The notes below the pieces were generated by a model that saw nothing but the letters and a program-made list of their open reading frames with translations, did no database searches and was not told where the DNA came from. A stretch of DNA of 55,960 nt from Chromatiales bacterium (GTDB lineage Bacteria; Pseudomonadota; Gammaproteobacteria; SpSt-1174): the NCBI GenBank assembly GCA_014762505.1, contig JABURS010000031.1:1-55960 (forward strand). Direction: 5' to 3'. The position numbers and the translations under genes were made by a program. Of the stretch, positions 2,838-17,354 are shown piece after piece. Each line of letters starts with the position of its first letter. Within the stretch, counting starts at the first letter, position 1.

Positions 2838-3073
2838 ATATACAGTGGAAGGGTTGCCCGGATCAGGCCGGTGGGGGAATGGGGAGCAGTGTACCGTCGT
2901 CTTCCGGTCGGCGCATGTCTGTCCGGGCCGACCGGGGCGATGGTATTCAGGATGAACAGCATTTTCATTTGCGGTGTACGGGATTAGTCTGTAATGAAAC
3001 CGGTCTGCGATTCATTGCAGGCTGAGCCCGGGTGGCAGGAAGGCCGTGCCCTGCGTGCAGCGTTAGGATCTGA

Positions 3074-4138
3074 ATGGCTTTCCGGATGCTCCCGATGAAG
3101 TTTGGTGATACCCCCGCCGAGATCGAGAACCGTCGCAAGACGCTCCTGATCTATACCTTCGCCACCCTTGGCAGTGTGTTTCTCATGACCTTCGCCCTGG
3201 CCTCGCTGCTCAGCGGCCGGCTCGAACTGGGCGGTATCCTGGTGCTCACCAGCGCGGCGGTACTGTCGCTGGCCTACGTGGCGCGCCGCCTGCGCTCGGC
3301 GCAGCCGGTGAGCCTGGCGCTGGCGGCCATCCTGCTCTTTCTCTCTTCCTATCTGGTGCTCACCGGCGGCGTAGGCGGCACGGGCTTCTACTGGTCCTAC
3401 CCGTTTGTGATGCTGATGGTGCTGCTGGTCGGCCCCCGGGCCGGCACGGTGTATCTGCTGCTGTACCTGGCGATCATCGCCGCGGGGCTGGCGAGCGGCA
3501 TGCCCTGGATCCATGACTACGAGCCACACCATGTGGTGCGCTTCATGGCCGCCCTGCTGGCGCTGTCCATCCTGCTGCTCGGCAGCGAGTGGATCCGGGT
3601 GCTCTCCTACGGGGCCATTACCGTGACCGCGGAGAACCATCGCCAGCTGGCCCACCGCGATGCCCTCACGGGCACGCTGAATCGCGCGGGCGTGGACCAC
3701 GTGATGGCGGACTGGCCGGCGGATACGGACGCCGTGGTGGCGCTGGTGGACATGGATCACTTCAAGGCGGTGAACGACAGCCATGGACATGACGTGGGCG
3801 ACAGGGCGCTGGTGAAGCTCGTCCGGTTGCTCAAGGGCAATACCAAGGGCCGTGACCTGGTGGTGCGCTGGGGCGGCGAGGAGTTTCTTCTGCTGTTGCC
3901 CCATACGTCGCTCGCCGCGGCCTGGCAGCTGGTGGACTCGATACGCCAGCAGCTGGAAAGGGAGCCGCTGCGTGCCGGCCGGCGGCAGGTGGCGCTCAGT
4001 TTCAGTGCCGGGCTCGCGGTCATGCAGGGGATCGACGGCTTCGAGGCCGCCGTGAAGGCGGCCGATGAGCAGTTGTATGCGGCCAAGCATGCCGGTCGCA
4101 ACCGGGTGCTGGCCGGGGGGCTGCCGGCACCGGCCTGA
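3074..4138 (+). CDS. Membrane-bound diguanylate cyclase
   Basis: This 354-residue protein has about six hydrophobic segments in residues 25-190 and a C-terminal GGDEF domain (about 195-345). The signature is GGEEF, an active variant, preceded by DALTGTLNRAG and the metal-binding VDMDHFKAVND motif. It should make cyclic di-GMP from two GTP at the inner membrane. The inhibitory I-site position reads KGRD instead of RxxD, so product feedback may be weakened. The 236-base spacer to the divergent lpxR-like gene should hold its promoter. In-frame ATGs at 3086 and 3095 are possible alternative starts. The signal sensed by the membrane part is unknown. Confidence 0.9.
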   Translation: MAFRMLPMKFGDTPAEIENRRKTLLIYTFATLGSVFLMTFALASLLSGRLELGGILVLTSAAVLSLAYVARRLRSAQPVSLALAAILLFLSSYLVLTGGVGGTGFYWSYPFVMLMVLLVGPRAGTVYLLLYLAIIAAGLASGMPWIHDYEPHHVVRFMAALLALSILLLGSEWIRVLSYGAITVTAENHRQLAHRDALTGTLNRAGVDHVMADWPADTDAVVALVDMDHFKAVNDSHGHDVGDRALVKLVRLLKGNTKGRDLVVRWGGEEFLLLLPHTSLAAAWQLVDSIRQQLEREPLRAGRRQVALSFSAGLAVMQGIDGFEAAVKAADEQLYAAKHAGRNRVLAGGLPAPA

Positions 4139-5307: not shown

Positions 5308-5386
5308 GTCGCCGCGGGGCCTTTCGCTCGCCGCGCAACCGGTTTGCTAAGCTCAGGCCGTCGCATTACCCATAGAGGAGAGCCCC

Positions 5387-5662
5387 ATGCCGAATCCCGT
5401 GATTGCCGCCAACCAGCCGGCCAAGGTCTCGCTGACGAAAGGCAAGGAGTACTGGTTCTGCCGCTGCGGTCGTTCGAAGAGCCAGCCGTTCTGCGATGGT
5501 TCCCACGAGGGCACGGGGTTCGAGCCGCTGGCCTTCACCGCCCAGAAGGATGGCGACGCCTTCCTCTGCCAGTGCAAGCACACGGGCAATCCCCCGTACT
5601 GCGACGGCACGCACCAGCAGTTCACCGACGACCAGGTCGGCCAGGCGGGCCCGGGCGTCTGA
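5387..5662 (+). CDS. Double CDGSH-type iron-sulfur protein
   Basis: This 91-residue protein carries two mitoNEET-like CDGSH domains. The first is FCRCGRSKSQPFCDGSH (about residues 25-41) and the second is LCQCKHTGNPPYCDGTH (about 64-80). Each has the 3-Cys/1-His pattern that binds a [2Fe-2S] cluster. There is no membrane anchor, so it is a soluble cytoplasmic protein, possibly in redox or cluster transfer. A good GAGGAG ribosome-binding site precedes the ATG. The exact role of bacterial tandem-CDGSH proteins is not known. Confidence 0.9.
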   Translation: MPNPVIAANQPAKVSLTKGKEYWFCRCGRSKSQPFCDGSHEGTGFEPLAFTAQKDGDAFLCQCKHTGNPPYCDGTHQQFTDDQVGQAGPGV

Positions 5663-5704
5663 CGCCCGTCCCTCAATCACCCCTCACACCATAACGGAGT
5701 CCCC

Positions 5705-6049
5705 ATGCCCGCCTGGCTCGTTCCCGCCCTGAAGGCCGTGCTGCCCCACGTCGGTTCCATCGTGGCCGCGGCCGCGCCGGTGTTCACGCAAAAGCGCGCG
5801 GGCGAGGCCTCGGCGGGGCAGGCCGCCGTGGTGCAGCAGCAGATCGCGGAGCTGCAGCAGGCCGCCTCGCAGAACGCGGTGCACGTGCGCGAGCTGGCCG
5901 AGCAGCTGGGCCAGACGGTGACGGCGCTGGAGCGTGCGGCCGAGCAGGCGGAGGCGCGCATGCGCCGCGCGGTCGGCCTCAGCCTGGTGGCGGTCGGCCT
6001 GGCGGGCGTGGCGCTGCTGCTCGCCCTGGTGGTGCTGCTGCGCGGCTGA
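5705..6049 (+). CDS. Small tail-anchored membrane protein, unknown function
   Basis: This 114-residue protein is not recognised. Residues 1-35 are alanine-rich and weakly hydrophobic. Residues 36-85 are a likely helical coiled coil rich in Gln, Glu and Ala. Residues 86-114 form one transmembrane helix ending LVVLLRG. The layout suggests an inner-membrane protein with its coiled coil exposed to one side. It follows the CDGSH gene by 42 bases and may share its transcript. Codon use matches its neighbours, so I treat it as real. Confidence 0.6.
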   Translation: MPAWLVPALKAVLPHVGSIVAAAAPVFTQKRAGEASAGQAAVVQQQIAELQQAASQNAVHVRELAEQLGQTVTALERAAEQAEARMRRAVGLSLVAVGLAGVALLLALVVLLRG

Positions 6050-6130
6050 GGACTGAACGATCCGCCGCCCGGCGGGTCCCAAGCCTGGATGGCCGCCCTG
6101 CCAGGAGCGTATACCGGCTGTGCATTTGCA

Positions 6131-6251
6131 CGGCGACGACGAGGATCTTCTTCATGCTTGCTGCATTCCCAACGGGTGGTCGCGCCGCCCCCGCCGGCGC
6201 GACCACCCGTTGGGAATGCAGCAAGCATGAAGAAGATCCTCGTCGTCGCCG
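6131..6251. repeat. Perfect 57-bp inverted repeat with 7-base loop over the RND adaptor start
   Basis: Bases 6131-6187 are the exact reverse complement of 6195-6251, separated by seven bases (6188-6194). The right arm contains the ATG (6227) and first codons of the RND adaptor gene; the left arm is its mirror copy in the intergenic gap after 6049. In RNA the start codon would be buried in a very stable hairpin. A genuine cruciform or translational control element and an assembly or amplification fold-back artefact would look the same. Confidence 0.97.
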
Positions 6252-7282
6252 TGGTGCTGATCATCGGCGCAGGGGCCTGGTACTACCAGGCGACCTCAAG
6301 GCAGCCGGCCGGCGGCAAGCGCGGCGGCCCCATCCCCGTGGTGGTGGCGCCAGTGGTGCGCGACAGCTTCGCCACCACGGTGCAGGCGGTGGGCACGGCC
6401 CGGGCCAACGAGTCGGTGGACATCACCGCCAAGGTCACAGAGACGGTGGCGCGCATCAACTTCGAGGACCGCCAGCAGGTGCAGGCCGGCGACCTGCTGG
6501 TGCAGCTGTCCACCGACCGCCAGCTCGCCGAGCTCGAGATCGCCAAGGTGAACCTCGCCGAGCAGGAGCGGGAATACCGGCGGCTCTCCGGTCTGGTGCA
6601 GCAGCGCGCCATCCCCCAGTCCCAGCTCGATGCCCAGCTCTCGCGCCTGGAGTCGGCGCGCGCGCAGCTGGCCGCCGCCCAGACCAGCGTGGCCGACCGC
6701 CGCATCGTCGCCCCCTTCGACGGCGTGCTCGGCCTGCGCCGCGTGAGCCCGGGGGCGCTGGTCTCGCCCGGCACCGTGCTGGTGACGCTGGACGACATCG
6801 ATCCCATCAAGCTGGACTTCACGATCTCCGAGGTCTTCCTGCCGGCGCTGCACCCGGGGCTGGCGATCGTGGCACGCAGCGCGGCCTATCGCGACGCCCC
6901 CTTTGCCGGCGAGGTGATGAGCGTGGACTCGCGCGTGGACCCGGTGACCCGCGCCGTGGCCGTGCGCGCCCATCTGCCCAATCCCGATGGCCGCCTGAGC
7001 CCCGGCATGCTCATGACCGTGCGCCTTCAGACCGACGCGCGCGAGGCCCTGGTGATCCCCGAGGCGGCCCTGGTGCCGCTGGAGGATCGCCAGTACGTGT
7101 TCGTGGTCGACGAGGCGGGCAAGGCCCAGCGCGTGGAAGTGGAGATCGGCCGGCGCCGGCCCGGCGAGGTGGAGATCCTCTCCGGCCTGGAGGAAGGCCA
7201 GCGCGTGGTGGTGGAGGGCACCATCCGCCTGCGTCCCGGTACCGAGGTGCGCATCGCGCGGGAGACCGGCAACGCCGGTTGA
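6227..7282 (+). CDS. RND efflux periplasmic adaptor (membrane fusion protein)
   Basis: This 351-residue protein starts MKKILVVAVVLIIGAGAWYY, one N-terminal membrane anchor with no lipobox Cys. It continues with the adaptor order: barrel-sandwich half (VVAPVVRD to VEAIN-like), an alpha-helical hairpin rich in Glu, Gln and Arg, the lipoyl half (RIVAPFDGVLGLRRVSPGALV), a beta-barrel (VTRAVAVRAHLPN) and a membrane-proximal part. It links the inner-membrane RND pump encoded seven bases downstream to an outer-membrane channel not encoded here. I chose the ATG at 6227 because the anchor helix follows directly; longer in-frame starts lie in the inverted repeat's left arm and give arginine- and proline-rich sequence. 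Confidence 0.9.
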   Translation: MKKILVVAVVLIIGAGAWYYQATSRQPAGGKRGGPIPVVVAPVVRDSFATTVQAVGTARANESVDITAKVTETVARINFEDRQQVQAGDLLVQLSTDRQLAELEIAKVNLAEQEREYRRLSGLVQQRAIPQSQLDAQLSRLESARAQLAAAQTSVADRRIVAPFDGVLGLRRVSPGALVSPGTVLVTLDDIDPIKLDFTISEVFLPALHPGLAIVARSAAYRDAPFAGEVMSVDSRVDPVTRAVAVRAHLPNPDGRLSPGMLMTVRLQTDAREALVIPEAALVPLEDRQYVFVVDEAGKAQRVEVEIGRRRPGEVEILSGLEEGQRVVVEGTIRLRPGTEVRIARETGNAG

Positions 7283-7288
7283 TGCACC

Positions 7289-10200
7289 ATGCTGATCACC
7301 GATGTCGCCGTCAAGCGCCCCGTCTTCGCGACGGTCATCAGCCTGCTGCTGGTGGCCTTCGGCCTGATCAGCTTCGACCGCCTGCCGCTGCGTGAATACC
7401 CGGACGTGGATCCGCCCATCGTCTCCATCGAGACGACCTATCCCGGCGCCTCGGCGGCGGTGGTGGAGACCAAGATCACCCAGCTCATCGAGGACCGCGT
7501 GAGCGGCATCGAGGGCATCCGCACCATCACCTCGCAAAGTCGCGACGGCCAGTCGTCCACCACCATCGAGTTCACCCTGGACCGCGACATCGACGCGGCC
7601 GCCAACGACGTGCGCGAACGCCTCTCGCGGGTGATCGACAACATCCCGGACGAGGCCGACCCGCCCGAGATATTCAAGGTGGATTCCAACACCGGCGTGA
7701 TCATGTGGCTCAACCTGTCGAGCCCGGTGCTCAACCGCCTGGAGCTCACCGACTACGCCGAGCGCTACCTGGTCGACCGCCTCTCCGTGCTGCCGGGCGT
7801 GGCGCGGGTGCGCGTGGGCGGGCAGCAGCGCTACGCCATGCGCATCTGGCTGAATCGCGAGCAGCTCGCCGCCCACCAGCTCACCGTGGCCGACGTGGAG
7901 GCCGCCCTGCGCGAGCAGAACGTGGAGCTGCCGGCCGGACGGCTGGAGTCGGTGGACCGCGAGTTCACCGTGCGCACCGAGCGCGTATACAACAATGTGG
8001 ACGACTTCCGCGGCCTGGTGCTGGCCCGCGGTGCGGACGGGCACCAGGTGCGGCTGGCCGACGTGGCGCGCGTGGAGCGGGCGGCCGAGGACCTGCGCAA
8101 CGAGCTGCGCGGCAACGGCGTGAACATGGTGGGCCTGGGCATCACCCGCCAGTCCACCGCCAACACCCTGGAGGTGGCGCAGGCGGTGAAGGCCGAGGCC
8201 GAGCGCATCCGCGCCGAGCTGCCCGAGGCCATCACGCTCAGCCAGAGCTACGACACCTCGGTGTTCATCCAGGAGGCCATCGACGAGGTGTACAAGACCC
8301 TGGGCATCGCCACGGCGCTGGTGGTGCTGGTGATCTATCTCTTCCTCGGCAACCTGCGCGCCATGTTCGTGCCGGCGGTGACGGTGCCGGTCTCGCTCAT
8401 CGCCGCCTCCATCGTGCTCTACGCCCTGGGCTTTTCCATCAACCTGCTCACGCTGCTCGCCCTGGTGCTGGCCATCGGCCTGGTGGTGGACGACGCCATC
8501 ATCATGCTGGAGAACATCCACCGGCGCATCGAGCAGGGCGAGCCGCCGCTGCTGGCCGCCTATCGCGGTGCGCGCCAGGTGGGCTTCGCCATCGTCGCCA
8601 CCACCCTGGTGCTGATCTCGGTGTTCGTGCCCATCGCCTTCCTCGAGGGCAGTACCGGTCGGCTCTTCACCGAGTTCGCGCTGGCCATCGCCGGGGCCGT
8701 GGCCTTCTCCAGCATCGTCGCGCTCACGCTCTCGCCGGTGATGTGCTCCAAACTGCTCAAGCCGCATGCCGCACCGGCCGGTTTCTACGGCTGGCTGGAG
8801 CGGGGCTTCGACCGGCTGGCCGCCGTGTATCGGGGCAGCCTCGAGGCGGTGCTCGACCGGCCGCTGTGGGTGGGGCTCACGCTGGTACTGATCCTGGCCA
8901 GCGTGCTGGGCCTGCTGCGCCTGGTGCCCACCGAGTTCACGCCCAAGGAGGACCGCGGGGCCTTCTTCGTGCTGGTCACGGCGCCCGAGGGCACCAGCTA
9001 CGAGAAGACCGTGAGCTACATGCGCGAGATCGAGGCGCGCATGATGCCGATGCTCGAGAGCGGCGAGGCCACCCGCGTGCTGGCGCGGGTGCCCGGCAGC
9101 TTCGGTTCCACCGAGGTGGTGAACACGGCGCGCGGCATCGTGGTGCTCGCGCCCTTCGGCGAGCGGCGCAACGGCTACGAGATCATGGCCGAGCTGTCGG
9201 GCCGCTTCGCCGACGTGCCCGGCGTGCGCGCCATCCCGGTGATGCGCCGAGGCATCGGCGGCGGTGGCGAGAGCCAGGCCGTGCAGTTCGTCATCGGCGG
9301 CCCCTCCTACGACGTGCTCGCCGGCTGGCGCGACATCATCCTCGATGCGGCCGCGCAGAATCCGGGCCTCACGGCGCTGGATGCCGACTACAAGGAGACC
9401 CGTCCGCAGGTGCTGGTCACCATCGACAAGACGCGTGCCGCCGATCTCGGCATCTCGCTGGAGCAGATCGGCCGCACCCTGGAGACCATGCTCGGTTCGC
9501 GGCGCGTGACCACCTATATCGAGCGCGGCGAGGAATACGACGTGATCGTCGAGGGCGAGGAGGCCCAGCACCGCACGGTCGAGGACATGAGCAACATCTA
9601 CGTGCGTTCCGAGCGCAGCGGGGAGCTGATCCCGCTGGCCAACCTCGTGACCACGGCGGAGACGGCGGCCTCGTCCACGCTCAACCGCTACAACCGCATC
9701 CGCGCCGTCACCATCACCGCCAACCTGGTGGGCGACTACACCCTGGGCGAGGCGGTGACCTTCCTCGAGGACCTGGTGCGCGAGGAGTTGCCGCCGGAGG
9801 CCCAGGTGGACTACAAGGGCGATGCCCTGGAGCTGAAGGAGTCCGGTGGCTCGGTGCTGTTCATCTTCGCCCTGGCCCTGCTGGTGGCCTACCTGGTGCT
9901 GGCGGCGCAGTTCGAGAGCTTCGTCCATCCCTTCGTCATCATGCTCTCGGTGCCGCTGGCGGTGGCGGGCGGCCTGTTCGGGCTGTATGTCACCGGGCAG
10001 AGTCTCAACATCTACAGCCAGATCGGGCTGATCATGCTCATCGGCCTGGCGGCGAAGAACGGCATCCTCATCGTGGAGTTCGCCAACCAGCTGCGTGACG
10101 AGGGCCGGGCCTTCCGCGAGGCGCTGGTGGAGGCCTCCGCCCTGCGCCTGCGCCCCATCCTGATGACGGCCATCACCACGGTGATGGGGGCGGTGCCGCT

Positions 10201-10399
10201 GATCCTGGCCAGCGGGGCCGGGGCGGAGAGCCGGGTGGTGATCGGCGTGGTGGTCTTCGCCGGCGTGCTGTTCTCCACCCTGTTCACGCTGTACGTGATC
10301 CCGGCCGCCTACCTCCTGCTCGCGCGCAATACCGGCTCGCCGGAGGACACGGCGCATGCCCTCGAACACCTGCAGAAGACCTCCGAGCACCGGGTCTGA
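7289..10399 (+). CDS. RND multidrug-type efflux transporter, inner-membrane pump
   Basis: This 1036-residue protein is a full-length HAE1-class RND permease: a first helix at about residues 10-30, a large periplasmic porter domain, a block of helices at about 335-555, a second porter domain and a last helix block near 860-1020. The proton-relay residues are visible: adjacent Asp pair in AIGLVVDDAIIMLENIHRR and Lys in IGLAAKNGILIVEFANQ. It uses the proton gradient to expel hydrophobic or toxic compounds with the adaptor encoded just upstream. No outer-membrane channel gene is adjacent, so a shared TolC-type protein is likely. Substrate is unknown. Confidence 0.93.
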   Translation: MLITDVAVKRPVFATVISLLLVAFGLISFDRLPLREYPDVDPPIVSIETTYPGASAAVVETKITQLIEDRVSGIEGIRTITSQSRDGQSSTTIEFTLDRDIDAAANDVRERLSRVIDNIPDEADPPEIFKVDSNTGVIMWLNLSSPVLNRLELTDYAERYLVDRLSVLPGVARVRVGGQQRYAMRIWLNREQLAAHQLTVADVEAALREQNVELPAGRLESVDREFTVRTERVYNNVDDFRGLVLARGADGHQVRLADVARVERAAEDLRNELRGNGVNMVGLGITRQSTANTLEVAQAVKAEAERIRAELPEAITLSQSYDTSVFIQEAIDEVYKTLGIATALVVLVIYLFLGNLRAMFVPAVTVPVSLIAASIVLYALGFSINLLTLLALVLAIGLVVDDAIIMLENIHRRIEQGEPPLLAAYRGARQVGFAIVATTLVLISVFVPIAFLEGSTGRLFTEFALAIAGAVAFSSIVALTLSPVMCSKLLKPHAAPAGFYGWLERGFDRLAAVYRGSLEAVLDRPLWVGLTLVLILASVLGLLRLVPTEFTPKEDRGAFFVLVTAPEGTSYEKTVSYMREIEARMMPMLESGEATRVLARVPGSFGSTEVVNTARGIVVLAPFGERRNGYEIMAELSGRFADVPGVRAIPVMRRGIGGGGESQAVQFVIGGPSYDVLAGWRDIILDAAAQNPGLTALDADYKETRPQVLVTIDKTRAADLGISLEQIGRTLETMLGSRRVTTYIERGEEYDVIVEGEEAQHRTVEDMSNIYVRSERSGELIPLANLVTTAETAASSTLNRYNRIRAVTITANLVGDYTLGEAVTFLEDLVREELPPEAQVDYKGDALELKESGGSVLFIFALALLVAYLVLAAQFESFVHPFVIMLSVPLAVAGGLFGLYVTGQSLNIYSQIGLIMLIGLAAKNGILIVEFANQLRDEGRAFREALVEASALRLRPILMTAITTVMGAVPLILASGAGAESRVVIGVVVFAGVLFSTLFTLYVIPAAYLLLARNTGSPEDTAHALEHLQKTSEHRV

Positions 10400-10456
10400 C
10401 CCGGTGCCCGCGCGGGTCGCAGACAATGCCCCGCCCGCGGGGTATGCTTGCCCCCC

Positions 10457-11773
10457 ATGACCGCGACCCTCTCCCCCGATACCCTGCGCCGCTTCCGGCA
10501 GCTGACCTGGACGATCTACGTCGTACTGGTGCTCGGCTACATCTCCGTGTACTTCCACCGCATGGCCCCCGGCGTGGTGGCCTCGGACCTGATGGCGGCC
10601 TTTTCCACCACCGGCGCGGCGCTGGGCTCGCTGGCGGCCATGTATTACTACATCTATACCGCCATGCAGATCCCGGCCGGCGTACTGGCCGACACCATCG
10701 GCATCCGCGGCGCGGTGAGCGTGGGCAACCTGGTGGCGGGGGTGGGCTCCATCCTCTTCGGCCTGGCCGAGAGCTTCGAGGTGGCCGCGGTCGGCCGCTT
10801 CCTGGTGGGGCTGGGCGTGTCCGTGATCTTCGTCAGCCTGATGAAGAGCAACGCCGTGTGGTTCTCCGAGCGCATCTACGGGCGGGTGAGCGGGGTGACC
10901 CTGCTCATCGGCAACCTCGGCTCGGTGCTGGCCGCCGGCCCGCTGGCGGCGCTGCTCGGCTACCTCAGCTGGCGCACGGTGTTCGTCGCCACCGGCCTGT
11001 TTTCGCTGCTGCTGGCCGTGCTCTCCGTCTGGCTGGTACGCAACCGCCCCGAGGACGTGGGCCTGCCCTCCGTGCGCGAGCTGGAGGGCCGCGTCGCGCA
11101 TGCCCCGCGCCGGCACCACTGGCTGCGCGAGCTGCGCTCGCTGTTGTTCAACCCCCGCATCTGGCCGGGCTTTTTCGCCAACTTCGGCCTGGCCGGCGGC
11201 CTGTTCGCCTTCGCCGGGCTGTGGGGCGTGCCACTGTTGCGCGACGTCTTCGGCCTGTCGCGGGGCGACGCCTCGCTCTACACCACGCTGAGCCTGCTGG
11301 GGCTCGCCTTCGGCGCGTTGGCCGCGGGCTGGTTCTCGGACCACCTGGGTCGGCGCAAGCCGGTGCTGGTCGGCAGCGCGCTCATCTACGGGGCCTGCTG
11401 GCTGGCCATGCTGTTCCTGCCCTGGGGGCCGGGCTGGTCGGGGATGCTGCTGTTCGCGCTGCTGGGCTTCACCGGTGCGGGCTTCGTGGTGACCTACCCC
11501 TGCGCCCGCGAGGTGAGCCCGCCGCCCTCGGCCGGCATGGCCATCAGCATCGTCAACACCGGCCTGTTCCTCGGCGCGGCGCTGATGCAGCCGCTGTTCG
11601 GCTGGGCGCTGGACCTGGCCTGGGACGGGGTGCTCGTCGACGGCGTGCGCGTGTACGGCGCGACGGCCTACGACGCCGGCCTGTGGCTGATGTTCGGCTT
11701 CGCCGTCATCGCGCTCGTCGCCACCCTGCGCATCACCGAGACGCGCGGGCGCAACATCACGGTGGCCGACTGA
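10457..11773 (+). CDS. Major facilitator superfamily transporter
   Basis: This 438-residue protein has about 12 transmembrane helices with an MFS loop motif between helices 2 and 3 (GVLADTIGIRGAV) and a related one in the second half (DHLGRRKPVLVG). The sequence YISVYFHRMAPGVVASDL resembles the sugar-phosphate/anion:cation symporter branch. Substrate is not predictable. I chose the ATG at 10457; a TTG three codons earlier is possible. Its stop is immediately followed by the tag start, so the two are co-transcribed. Confidence 0.85.
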   Translation: MTATLSPDTLRRFRQLTWTIYVVLVLGYISVYFHRMAPGVVASDLMAAFSTTGAALGSLAAMYYYIYTAMQIPAGVLADTIGIRGAVSVGNLVAGVGSILFGLAESFEVAAVGRFLVGLGVSVIFVSLMKSNAVWFSERIYGRVSGVTLLIGNLGSVLAAGPLAALLGYLSWRTVFVATGLFSLLLAVLSVWLVRNRPEDVGLPSVRELEGRVAHAPRRHHWLRELRSLLFNPRIWPGFFANFGLAGGLFAFAGLWGVPLLRDVFGLSRGDASLYTTLSLLGLAFGALAAGWFSDHLGRRKPVLVGSALIYGACWLAMLFLPWGPGWSGMLLFALLGFTGAGFVVTYPCAREVSPPPSAGMAISIVNTGLFLGAALMQPLFGWALDLAWDGVLVDGVRVYGATAYDAGLWLMFGFAVIALVATLRITETRGRNITVAD

Positions 11774-11774
11774 G

Positions 11775-12350
11775 ATGACCACGCGTTGCGGCTGGTGCGG
11801 GGACGATCCGCTGTATGTGGCCTATCATGACCGGGAATGGGGCGTGCCCTCGCGCGACGATGCGCACCTGTTCGAGATGCTGCTGCTGGAGGGGGCGCAG
11901 GCGGGCCTGAGCTGGATCACCATCCTGCGCAAGCGCGAGAACTACCGCCAGGCCCTGCATGGCTTCGACCCGGAGCGCATCGCCCGCTACACGGCGCGCG
12001 ACATCGAGCGCCTGATGGGCGACGCCGGCCTGGTGCGCAACCGTCTCAAGCTGGAGTCGGCGGTGCGCAACGCCCGTGCCTTTCTCGCGATGCAGGAGCG
12101 GCACGGCAGCTTCGCCGACTTCCTGTGGGGCTACGTGGACGGTACCCCGGTACAGAACCGCTGGCGCTCGCTGGCCGAGGTGCCGGCGCGTACGCCGCTC
12201 TCGGACCGCCTGGCCCGCGACCTGAAGAAGCTCGGCTTCAACTTCGTGGGCTCCACCATCTGCTATGCCTACCTGCAGTCGGTGGGTCTGGTCAACGACC
12301 ACCTAACCACCTGCTTTCGCCACCGCGAGCTGCGCCGCGAACAGCCATAG
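11775..12350 (+). CDS. tag: DNA-3-methyladenine glycosylase I
   Basis: This 191-residue base-excision repair enzyme removes 3-methyladenine from alkylated DNA. It shows the Tag signature: RCGWCGDDPLYVAYHDREWGVP at the start with the zinc Cys, EGAQAGLSWITILRKRENYR, and the C-terminal zinc ligands in STICYAYLQSVGLVNDH and CFRH. Length is normal for the family. It starts one base after the MFS stop codon. Two hairpins follow, the first a perfect 20-bp palindrome directly at its stop. Confidence 0.95.
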   Translation: MTTRCGWCGDDPLYVAYHDREWGVPSRDDAHLFEMLLLEGAQAGLSWITILRKRENYRQALHGFDPERIARYTARDIERLMGDAGLVRNRLKLESAVRNARAFLAMQERHGSFADFLWGYVDGTPVQNRWRSLAEVPARTPLSDRLARDLKKLGFNFVGSTICYAYLQSVGLVNDHLTTCFRHRELRREQP

Positions 12351-15068: not shown

Positions 15069-17354
15069 ATGACAGCAAATACCAACAGCAACAGTGCACG
15101 CGAGGCGTCTCTCGCCCGGCGCCGTGCCTTGTCGACCAAGGGCAAGGCTGCGCTTGGCGCTAGCTCCGCCACGGCCGGTCGCAGTACGCCTGCTTCGAGC
15201 GCGACTGCGGCTAGTGGTAGCAGTGCTCCGGTGGCTCGTCCGACGACGACTCCCGGCGGTTCGGCCCGTGCTGCCTCCCGGGCGCGTCGCCAGGCGATGT
15301 CCGTGCGTGGCAAGGCGGGTCTTGGCAACCGCGACCGCGTACGCAATCCCTCGGCCCCCAAGTCCGGTCCGACCCCGACGGCTGCCCCGGCGGCGAAGGG
15401 CGACTGTGGCTGCGGCTGCAAGGGTGAAGGCAAGGATCGCGCCACGGCGCGTGACAGTCAGCCTGCTGTCAGCACGACGAAGCCGCGGTTGAACCCGGCC
15501 GTGCTGAGCAAGGCCCCCAGGAACATCAATCCCACGCGTGCCGCCTCCCTGGCCCGTCGCCAGGCGATGTCCACGCGCGGGAAGGCTGGTATCAGCAAGA
15601 ACGGTATGAGCGCCGCGCAGACCGCGCGTGCTGCCAACCCGAACATGACCAGCCGTGAACTGGCACAGGAGCTGCGCGCGCAGCGCAGCAAGAACGGCAA
15701 GACCGGCCAGCGTCAGCAGAAGAGTGAACCGGTCGGGCGCCGTCGCAGCAAGGCCGGTCAGGCCGGTGCGGCCGCCGATCAGCCCTGGAAGGTGGGTGTC
15801 AGCGAGACCGTGCGCGGTCAGGCCGTCACCGGCACCATGGTCGGTCGCAGCGCGAAGACCACCGGCGACGAGCCGAGCACCTGCCGTGCCGTGACCGGCA
15901 CCGAATACATGGGTGCGGACATCTTCCGCCAGTTCTGCCAGAGCGAACCGGCCAAGACGCCGCGCAAGGTGCGGGTGAGCCCGACCAGTCACGGCAACCG
16001 CGTGACCGGTAACGAAGTGGGTCGCAGCGGCAAGGTGACCGGTGACGAGCCCGGTACCTGCAAGCGCGTGACCGGCTCCGAATACCTGAGCCCGAACCAG
16101 GTCGAGAAGTTCTGCGGCACCAAGCCCGAGGCCGGCCCGAGCAAGATCACGGGCGCCGAGACCCGCAAGGGCAAGGGCGTGACCGGCAACAACGTGGGCC
16201 GTTCCGCGAAGGTGACCGGCGACGAGACCGGTGCGGGTCGCGAACTGACCGGTACCCAGTACATGCAGAAGGGTGACGGCAAGGCCCCGGCCAAGGTCGG
16301 CACCAGCCAGACCCTGCGCGGTGGTGCCGTCACCGGCACCATGGTCGGCCGTGGCAAGAGCGTGACCGGCGACGAGCCGGGCAGCTGCCGCAACATCACC
16401 GGCGACGACTATGTCGGCCAGGAACAGTACAGCGGCTTCTGCGCCAAGACCCCGGCCCCGGCCCCGCAGGATCGCAAGGTGGGTATGTCCCAGACCCTGA
16501 AGGGTCGTCCGGTGAGCGGCACGCTGACCGGTCGTTCCGACAAGGTCACCGGTGACGAGCCCGGCACCTGCAAGGCCATCACCGGCACGCCCTACGCCGG
16601 CGCCGAGCAGTACCGCAGCTACTGCAAGCCGGAAGAGGCGACCATGGCCTCGGCGCGCACCCGCGTGCAGCGTTCCACGCCCGGCCCCGTGATGACCGGT
16701 ATCCAGCCCGGTATCAACGGTCGCCTGACCGGTGCCGGCAGGGGTGCCTGCGAACCGGTGAGCGGCACGCCCTACGTGGGTGCCGACCAGTTCGCCGCCG
16801 CCTGCCCGTCGGTGCCGGCCGAGCCCGGCAGCCCGGACTACCCGCAGCCGCTGGGCGGCACCCCCTGGGGTCAGTTCAGCGTCGAGGCGCCGGTGCATGC
16901 CGCGCAGCCCGAGGCCCGTCGCAGCAGCGTGACCGGCAGCTCCTATGAAAAGGGCACCATCACCGGCCCGTTCGGCATGGCCAGCGGCAAGGTGACCGGT
17001 ACCGAGGAAGCGCGCTTTGGTCGCGGCAACGGCAGCCAGGAGATGGCCGCGCCGATGCCGGAGACGGTGGAAGAGATCGATGGCCGCGTGAAGGGCCGCA
17101 TCACCGGTGAAGGCATGGTGGCCGGTCTGAAGATCACCGGCGACGACTGGGATCGCGGCGACCGCGTGACCGGTACCGAGGGCATGTCCGCCGTGCGTCG
17201 CAATCCGACGCGTCGCGGTGCGCCGGTGGTGAGCGCCATGCAGCCGCCCAAGCGCAACGAAGACGTGCCGGCCCCGGTGAGCAAGGTGACGGGTGGCAGC
17301 GGTAACACCGAGAAGGGTTCGCTGATCACCTATTCCGGCGGCGCCCGCGGCTAA
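15069..17354 (+). CDS. csoS2: Carboxysome assembly scaffold CsoS2
   Basis: This 761-residue disordered protein links RuBisCO to the shell. The N-domain (1-235) has four RuBisCO-binding repeats, at about 9-30, 66-86, 156-176 and 194-213, of the form ARxASxARRxAxSxxGKAG. The middle domain has six repeats from about 240 to 595 with VTG and TGDEPGTC motifs; the third (about 358-408) lacks the paired Cys. The C-domain (596-761) ends in the conserved SLITYSGGARG. A CGCGC cluster at 113-117 sits in the linker between N-repeats 2 and 3. A slippery heptamer A AAG GGC lies at 16949-16955, at the middle/C boundary. The in-frame ATG at 14991 would read through the cbbS-csoS2 hairpin and is less likely. 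Confidence 0.96.
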   Translation: MTANTNSNSAREASLARRRALSTKGKAALGASSATAGRSTPASSATAASGSSAPVARPTTTPGGSARAASRARRQAMSVRGKAGLGNRDRVRNPSAPKSGPTPTAAPAAKGDCGCGCKGEGKDRATARDSQPAVSTTKPRLNPAVLSKAPRNINPTRAASLARRQAMSTRGKAGISKNGMSAAQTARAANPNMTSRELAQELRAQRSKNGKTGQRQQKSEPVGRRRSKAGQAGAAADQPWKVGVSETVRGQAVTGTMVGRSAKTTGDEPSTCRAVTGTEYMGADIFRQFCQSEPAKTPRKVRVSPTSHGNRVTGNEVGRSGKVTGDEPGTCKRVTGSEYLSPNQVEKFCGTKPEAGPSKITGAETRKGKGVTGNNVGRSAKVTGDETGAGRELTGTQYMQKGDGKAPAKVGTSQTLRGGAVTGTMVGRGKSVTGDEPGSCRNITGDDYVGQEQYSGFCAKTPAPAPQDRKVGMSQTLKGRPVSGTLTGRSDKVTGDEPGTCKAITGTPYAGAEQYRSYCKPEEATMASARTRVQRSTPGPVMTGIQPGINGRLTGAGRGACEPVSGTPYVGADQFAAACPSVPAEPGSPDYPQPLGGTPWGQFSVEAPVHAAQPEARRSSVTGSSYEKGTITGPFGMASGKVTGTEEARFGRGNGSQEMAAPMPETVEEIDGRVKGRITGEGMVAGLKITGDDWDRGDRVTGTEGMSAVRRNPTRRGAPVVSAMQPPKRNEDVPAPVSKVTGGSGNTEKGSLITYSGGARG

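Follow-up and report, generated by a model that had tools for sequence, protein, structure and literature searches.

A perfect 59-bp inverted repeat over the start of an RND adaptor gene as a probable footprint of replication template switching in a Chromatiales bacterium

Template switching during replication is an established source of mutations in bacteria, as presented in the E. coli work of PMC7202029. According to the scheme outlined there for quasipalindromes, the nascent strand snaps back, copies itself, and then returns to its template. The geometry that results from two such switches is captured by the four-point model, as set out in PMC7954356 and PMC8794818. Here, we analyse a long hairpin at the start of an efflux gene in a Chromatiales bacterium, contained in a window of 55,960 nucleotides (contig JABURS010000031.1 of assembly GCA_014762505.1), whose features can be compared with these descriptions.

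The inverted repeat consists of two perfect arms of 59 nt each, located on the plus strand at positions 6129-6187 and 6195-6253, which are 100% complementary and are separated by the 7-nt loop CCCCCGC (6188-6194), whose orientation could be ambiguous if the sequencing reads were shorter than the palindrome. The initial annotation of this DNA had described perfect 57-bp arms at 6131-6251 around a 7-base loop; the perfection of the arms and the length of the loop were confirmed, and the arm length had to be corrected to 59 nt (6129-6253). It had also taken the right arm to be the true 5' end of the coding sequence; this arm comprises a 32-nt leader and the first nine codons, from the ATG at 6227, of an RND periplasmic adaptor. 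The adaptor gene (6227-7282, plus strand) is intact and encodes a 351-residue protein of the HlyD_D23/HlyD_3 type (Pfam HlyD_D23, 87.6 bits), 85% identical to that of a congener (901 of 1056 nucleotides identical, with the same residue in 299 of 352 codons, stop included). It is followed on the same strand by an AcrB-type RND pump gene (7289-10399) and preceded by a small open reading frame of 114 aa devoid of Pfam matches (5705-6049, plus strand), whose 3' part also precedes the congener adaptor. No Pfam match was obtained for the plus-strand translations of 10426-11775, 5705-6046, and 5344-5691, nor for that of 2984-4087 on the minus strand, a frame that is possibly wrong. On the minus strand, the left arm repeats the start region of the adaptor from 6155 downwards, and MKKILVVAV can be read there by eye; this is probably meaningless.

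A chance origin of the inverted repeat is excluded, since about 4e-25 such repeats are expected in the 2.77-Mb host genome under a base-composition model. Perfect arms with loops of up to 60 nt were searched in 621,198 bases of the host genome, made up of the window together with stretches from 40 further contigs, and the next-longest arm was 23 nt. The longest perfect arms were 19 nt in the congener G001 (212,611 bases scanned), 21 nt in the genome G002 (209,000 bases), and 26 nt in 20 other genomes of the class (742,420 bases). The scans together covered samples of 23 genomes, approximately 1.79 Mb in total, and returned no further perfect arm longer than 26 nt. The second longest perfect repeat across the scans, with 26-nt arms and a 16-nt loop, lies at 16843-16910 of locus L129 (genome G023, contig C1). 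Near-perfect 30-nt arms (up to 4 mismatches, loop of 3-60 nt) were observed in three other sampled host contigs (C33, C17, and C22; loci L080, L065, and L070) and in 2 of the 40 stretches from other genomes, whereas the stretches from G001 and G002 had none. A search for further copies of the repeat returned only itself and one 34-nt match at 85% identity, and a mobile or repeated element was discarded on account of this single weak match. The RNA fold predicted for 6110-6290 has an energy of -149.5 kcal/mol, as compared to a mean of -69.0 for shuffled sequences (z -21). No intrinsic terminator sites or terminator-like T-runs were detected within 5900-6400, and a consensus scan revealed no sigma-70 promoter.

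Comparison of this intergenic region with that of a close relative, as had been proposed in the initial annotation, was carried out with the one congener in the collection that has the region (G001, loci L004 and L006), whose genome is 75% complete. Family and order scopes comprise three genomes each, and the comparison has no outgroup because the only adaptor in the third genome, G002, is distant (34% identity); relatives in the collection may have been missed by the contig search with the adaptor as query. Two other genomes share single elements, the upstream small gene in G021 (L007) and an adaptor-like stretch in G014 (L008). The right arm and both flanks of the repeat align with congener locus L006: the left flank is collinear and includes a 23-nt identical block, GGCTGTGCATTTGCACGGCGACG (6116-6138, plus strand), and the right side is collinear from the leader into the gene. 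Inside this block, just left of the hairpin, lies the palindromic GTGCATTTGCAC (6120-6131), present in one copy in the window, a possible operator for the pump operon.

Between these conserved flanks, positions 6139-6177 (plus strand) are a 39-nt inverted copy of 6205-6243 and occupy the place of 48 unrelated nucleotides of the congener (L006 287-334). The alignment of this left-arm middle with the corresponding congener segment scored 10, a value equalled or exceeded by 447 of 500 shuffles, whereas the middle of the right arm scored 37 against the right region of the congener, a value reached by none of 500 shuffles. The left middle being unrelated and the right middle related to the congener, the right arm is the older one, and the left arm is a mirror copy written over the sequence that preceded it; this polarity rests on parsimony with one congener. 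The congener region has no hairpin and no excess folding (z -0.62), so that a conserved hairpin was rejected as far as this one relative can tell. The best local complementarity of the congener left segment to its own right side scored only 14; this low score, together with the ordinary fold, indicates that the segment is not a decayed arm.

Short complementary sequences are present in the congener at the ends of the copied segment. The outer anchor CACGGCGACG (6129-6138, plus strand) is the same in the congener, where its first 7 nt, CACGGCG, pair with CGCCGTG (codons 7-9) at homologous positions and in the same register; the pairing extends to 10 nt in the window. The inner anchor GGTCGCGCCG (6178-6187, plus strand) is found in forward orientation in the congener, along with a 5-nt pair, GGTCG/CGACC, at homologous positions. 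An imperfect inverted repeat formed by the outer and inner pairs thus pre-exists at the site in the congener, as in the quasipalindromes described in E. coli. With register ignored, chance alone produced complementary pairs of at least 7 nt in 116 of 2000 random stretch pairs, and the congener anchors are weak, since the fold of that region is not unusual. Furthermore, GGTCG and CGACC are separated by 3 nt in the congener and by 17 nt in the window, a difference that calls for at least one more change.

These observations make it likely that the hairpin is a recent replication template-switch mutation, that is, the conversion of a quasipalindrome to a palindrome. As in the four-point model of short-range switches, collinear flanks enclose an arm that is reverse-complementary to sequence nearby, and a two-junction replacement between pre-existing anchors is the signature of such an event. 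The recent inverted duplication suggested in the initial annotation is upheld as regards a recent inverted copy; what does not hold is an added duplication, as a segment of similar length was replaced between two pre-existing anchors. In the proposed mechanism, the ancestral leader would have contained two short complementary pairs, GGTCG/CGACC as an inner hairpin and CACGGCG/CGCCGTG outside it. While the bottom strand was being synthesised, its growing 3' end would have folded back at the inner hairpin and copied the strand it had just made, corresponding to the leader and first codons of the gene, before rejoining its proper template at the outer anchor. In this way, about 48 nt would be overwritten by the 39-nt inverted copy, giving rise to the perfect 59-bp stem.

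At the level of sequence, the comparison establishes the geometry of the repeat, the identity of the new arm, the collinearity of the flanks, and the existence of the anchors in the congener. The strand and the snap-back route are what we infer from this arrangement, and the event would be recent, judging from the arms, which have no mismatch yet. Of 7 bins along the window, 6 have a G-rich plus strand, which weakly suggests that a snap-back on the bottom strand would be a lagging-strand event. Template switching in E. coli favours the leading strand in the accounts given in PMC7202029 and PMC8794818; set against this bias, the lagging-strand hint means that a switch between strands is also possible.

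An alternative to the template switch is an artefact of assembly, library preparation, or amplification, by which chimeric snap-back reads would have been built into positions 6129-6253 of the contig. Snap-back of this kind can also happen in vitro, the assembly is a draft of 43 contigs, and arms without a single mismatch would be compatible with such an origin. However, a simple fold-back creates one junction followed by inverted sequence, whereas here both sides regain sequence collinear with the congener; this return to conserved flanks disfavours the simple form of the fold-back chimera raised in the initial annotation, and for the same reason a simple fold-back duplication was discarded as the main reading. 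In addition, the site is internal to an 84.6-kb contig, and no systematic problem is evident, given that 621 kb of the genome contained no second perfect arm above 23 nt. We therefore regard an artefact as unlikely, though still to be reckoned with.

Another explanation is selection of the hairpin as a control element, acting in RNA or DNA, that hides the start of the adaptor until a signal, an upstream ribosome, or RNase III opens it. In the predicted RNA fold, the 32 nt preceding the start codon, the start codon itself, and nine codons are inside the stem, and this coverage, along with the extreme predicted energy, would be in line with such a role. So would the adaptor frame, which is open from 6050 and has an in-frame ATG at 6089, upstream of that at 6227; the congener adaptor is likewise preceded by an open frame, however, so that this feature is not telling. 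Compensatory changes are lacking in the perfect 59-bp stem, and the hairpin is absent from the congener; the control-element option of the initial annotation finds no support, and we consider it very improbable. That the hairpin is ancestral and was lost in the congener is hardly credible: the comparison is limited to two genomes and both anchors are kept in the congener, but a deletion would leave a gap instead of 48 unrelated nucleotides, and that segment retains no complementarity beyond the weak local score mentioned above.

Initiation of translation should be strongly reduced at a start codon buried in a stem. The hairpin produced by the putative template switch is thus predicted to strongly sequester the ribosome-binding region and the start codon, and adaptor synthesis from the ATG at 6227 would be low. 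Translation from the in-frame ATG at 6089 could, in principle, read through the hairpin.

SbcCD is the nuclease that cleaves hairpins of this kind. The SbcD profile (TIGR00619) had no match in the host genome, nor in the congener or G002, and matched 13 of 14 control genomes, E. coli included. The SbcC profile (TIGR00618) yielded no more than two hits, both at about 20 bits and well short of the cut-off, and the SbcC Walker-B domain (PF13558), found in 12 of the 14 controls, was detected in none of the host genome, the congener, and G002. Absence of SbcCD may explain the tolerance of the hairpin. Among the 37 genomes searched, host included, SbcD matches at E <= 0.001 were obtained in 8, and 2 were above the cut-off; the absence of SbcD is thus common among them, which makes it a permissive background rather than anything special to the host. 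As a speculation to which we give little credence, long perfect hairpins left over start codons by template switches might persist in a lineage that lacks SbcCD and lock translation, in this case of an efflux adaptor, in a single, revertible step, a form of phase variation that needs no recombinase.

If the hairpin is real, it offers a natural case in which to study the tolerance of a bacterium for a 125-bp near-palindrome covering a start codon, and it raises the question of whether hosts without SbcCD keep more such hairpins. As a probable product of template switching, it would be a clean natural footprint of this process in a bacterium, in which comparison with one congener suffices to read off source, target, and anchors. 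Among the open-licence papers listed in our literature searches, we saw none on a template-switch hairpin of such length over a start codon, and the locus is probably an unusually long natural example of an established type of mutation.

Among intergenic palindromes, REP-type elements and intrinsic terminators resemble this locus in position, but the hairpin described here is single-copy, is devoid of a terminator-like T-run, and reaches into coding sequence. The four-point switches reported from great ape genomes in PMC7954356 and from microRNA and rRNA genes in PMC8794818 are similar in that, as described in those reports, one event writes a reverse-complement copy beside its source and then resumes on the original template; they differ in that the present case is on a bacterial chromosome and its stem lies over a protein-coding start instead of an RNA gene. 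The closest likeness is to the lacZ quasipalindrome reporters and the thyA hotspot of E. coli, where, in the account of PMC7202029, an imperfect inverted repeat is perfected by nascent-strand copying from short hairpin anchors. The mutations described in that account were selected in a reporter, whereas the hairpin of the window is natural; and its written copy, about 39 nt between anchors no longer than 5 and 7-10 nt, is longer than the lacZ substrate given there, an 18-bp quasipalindrome with a 4-bp change.
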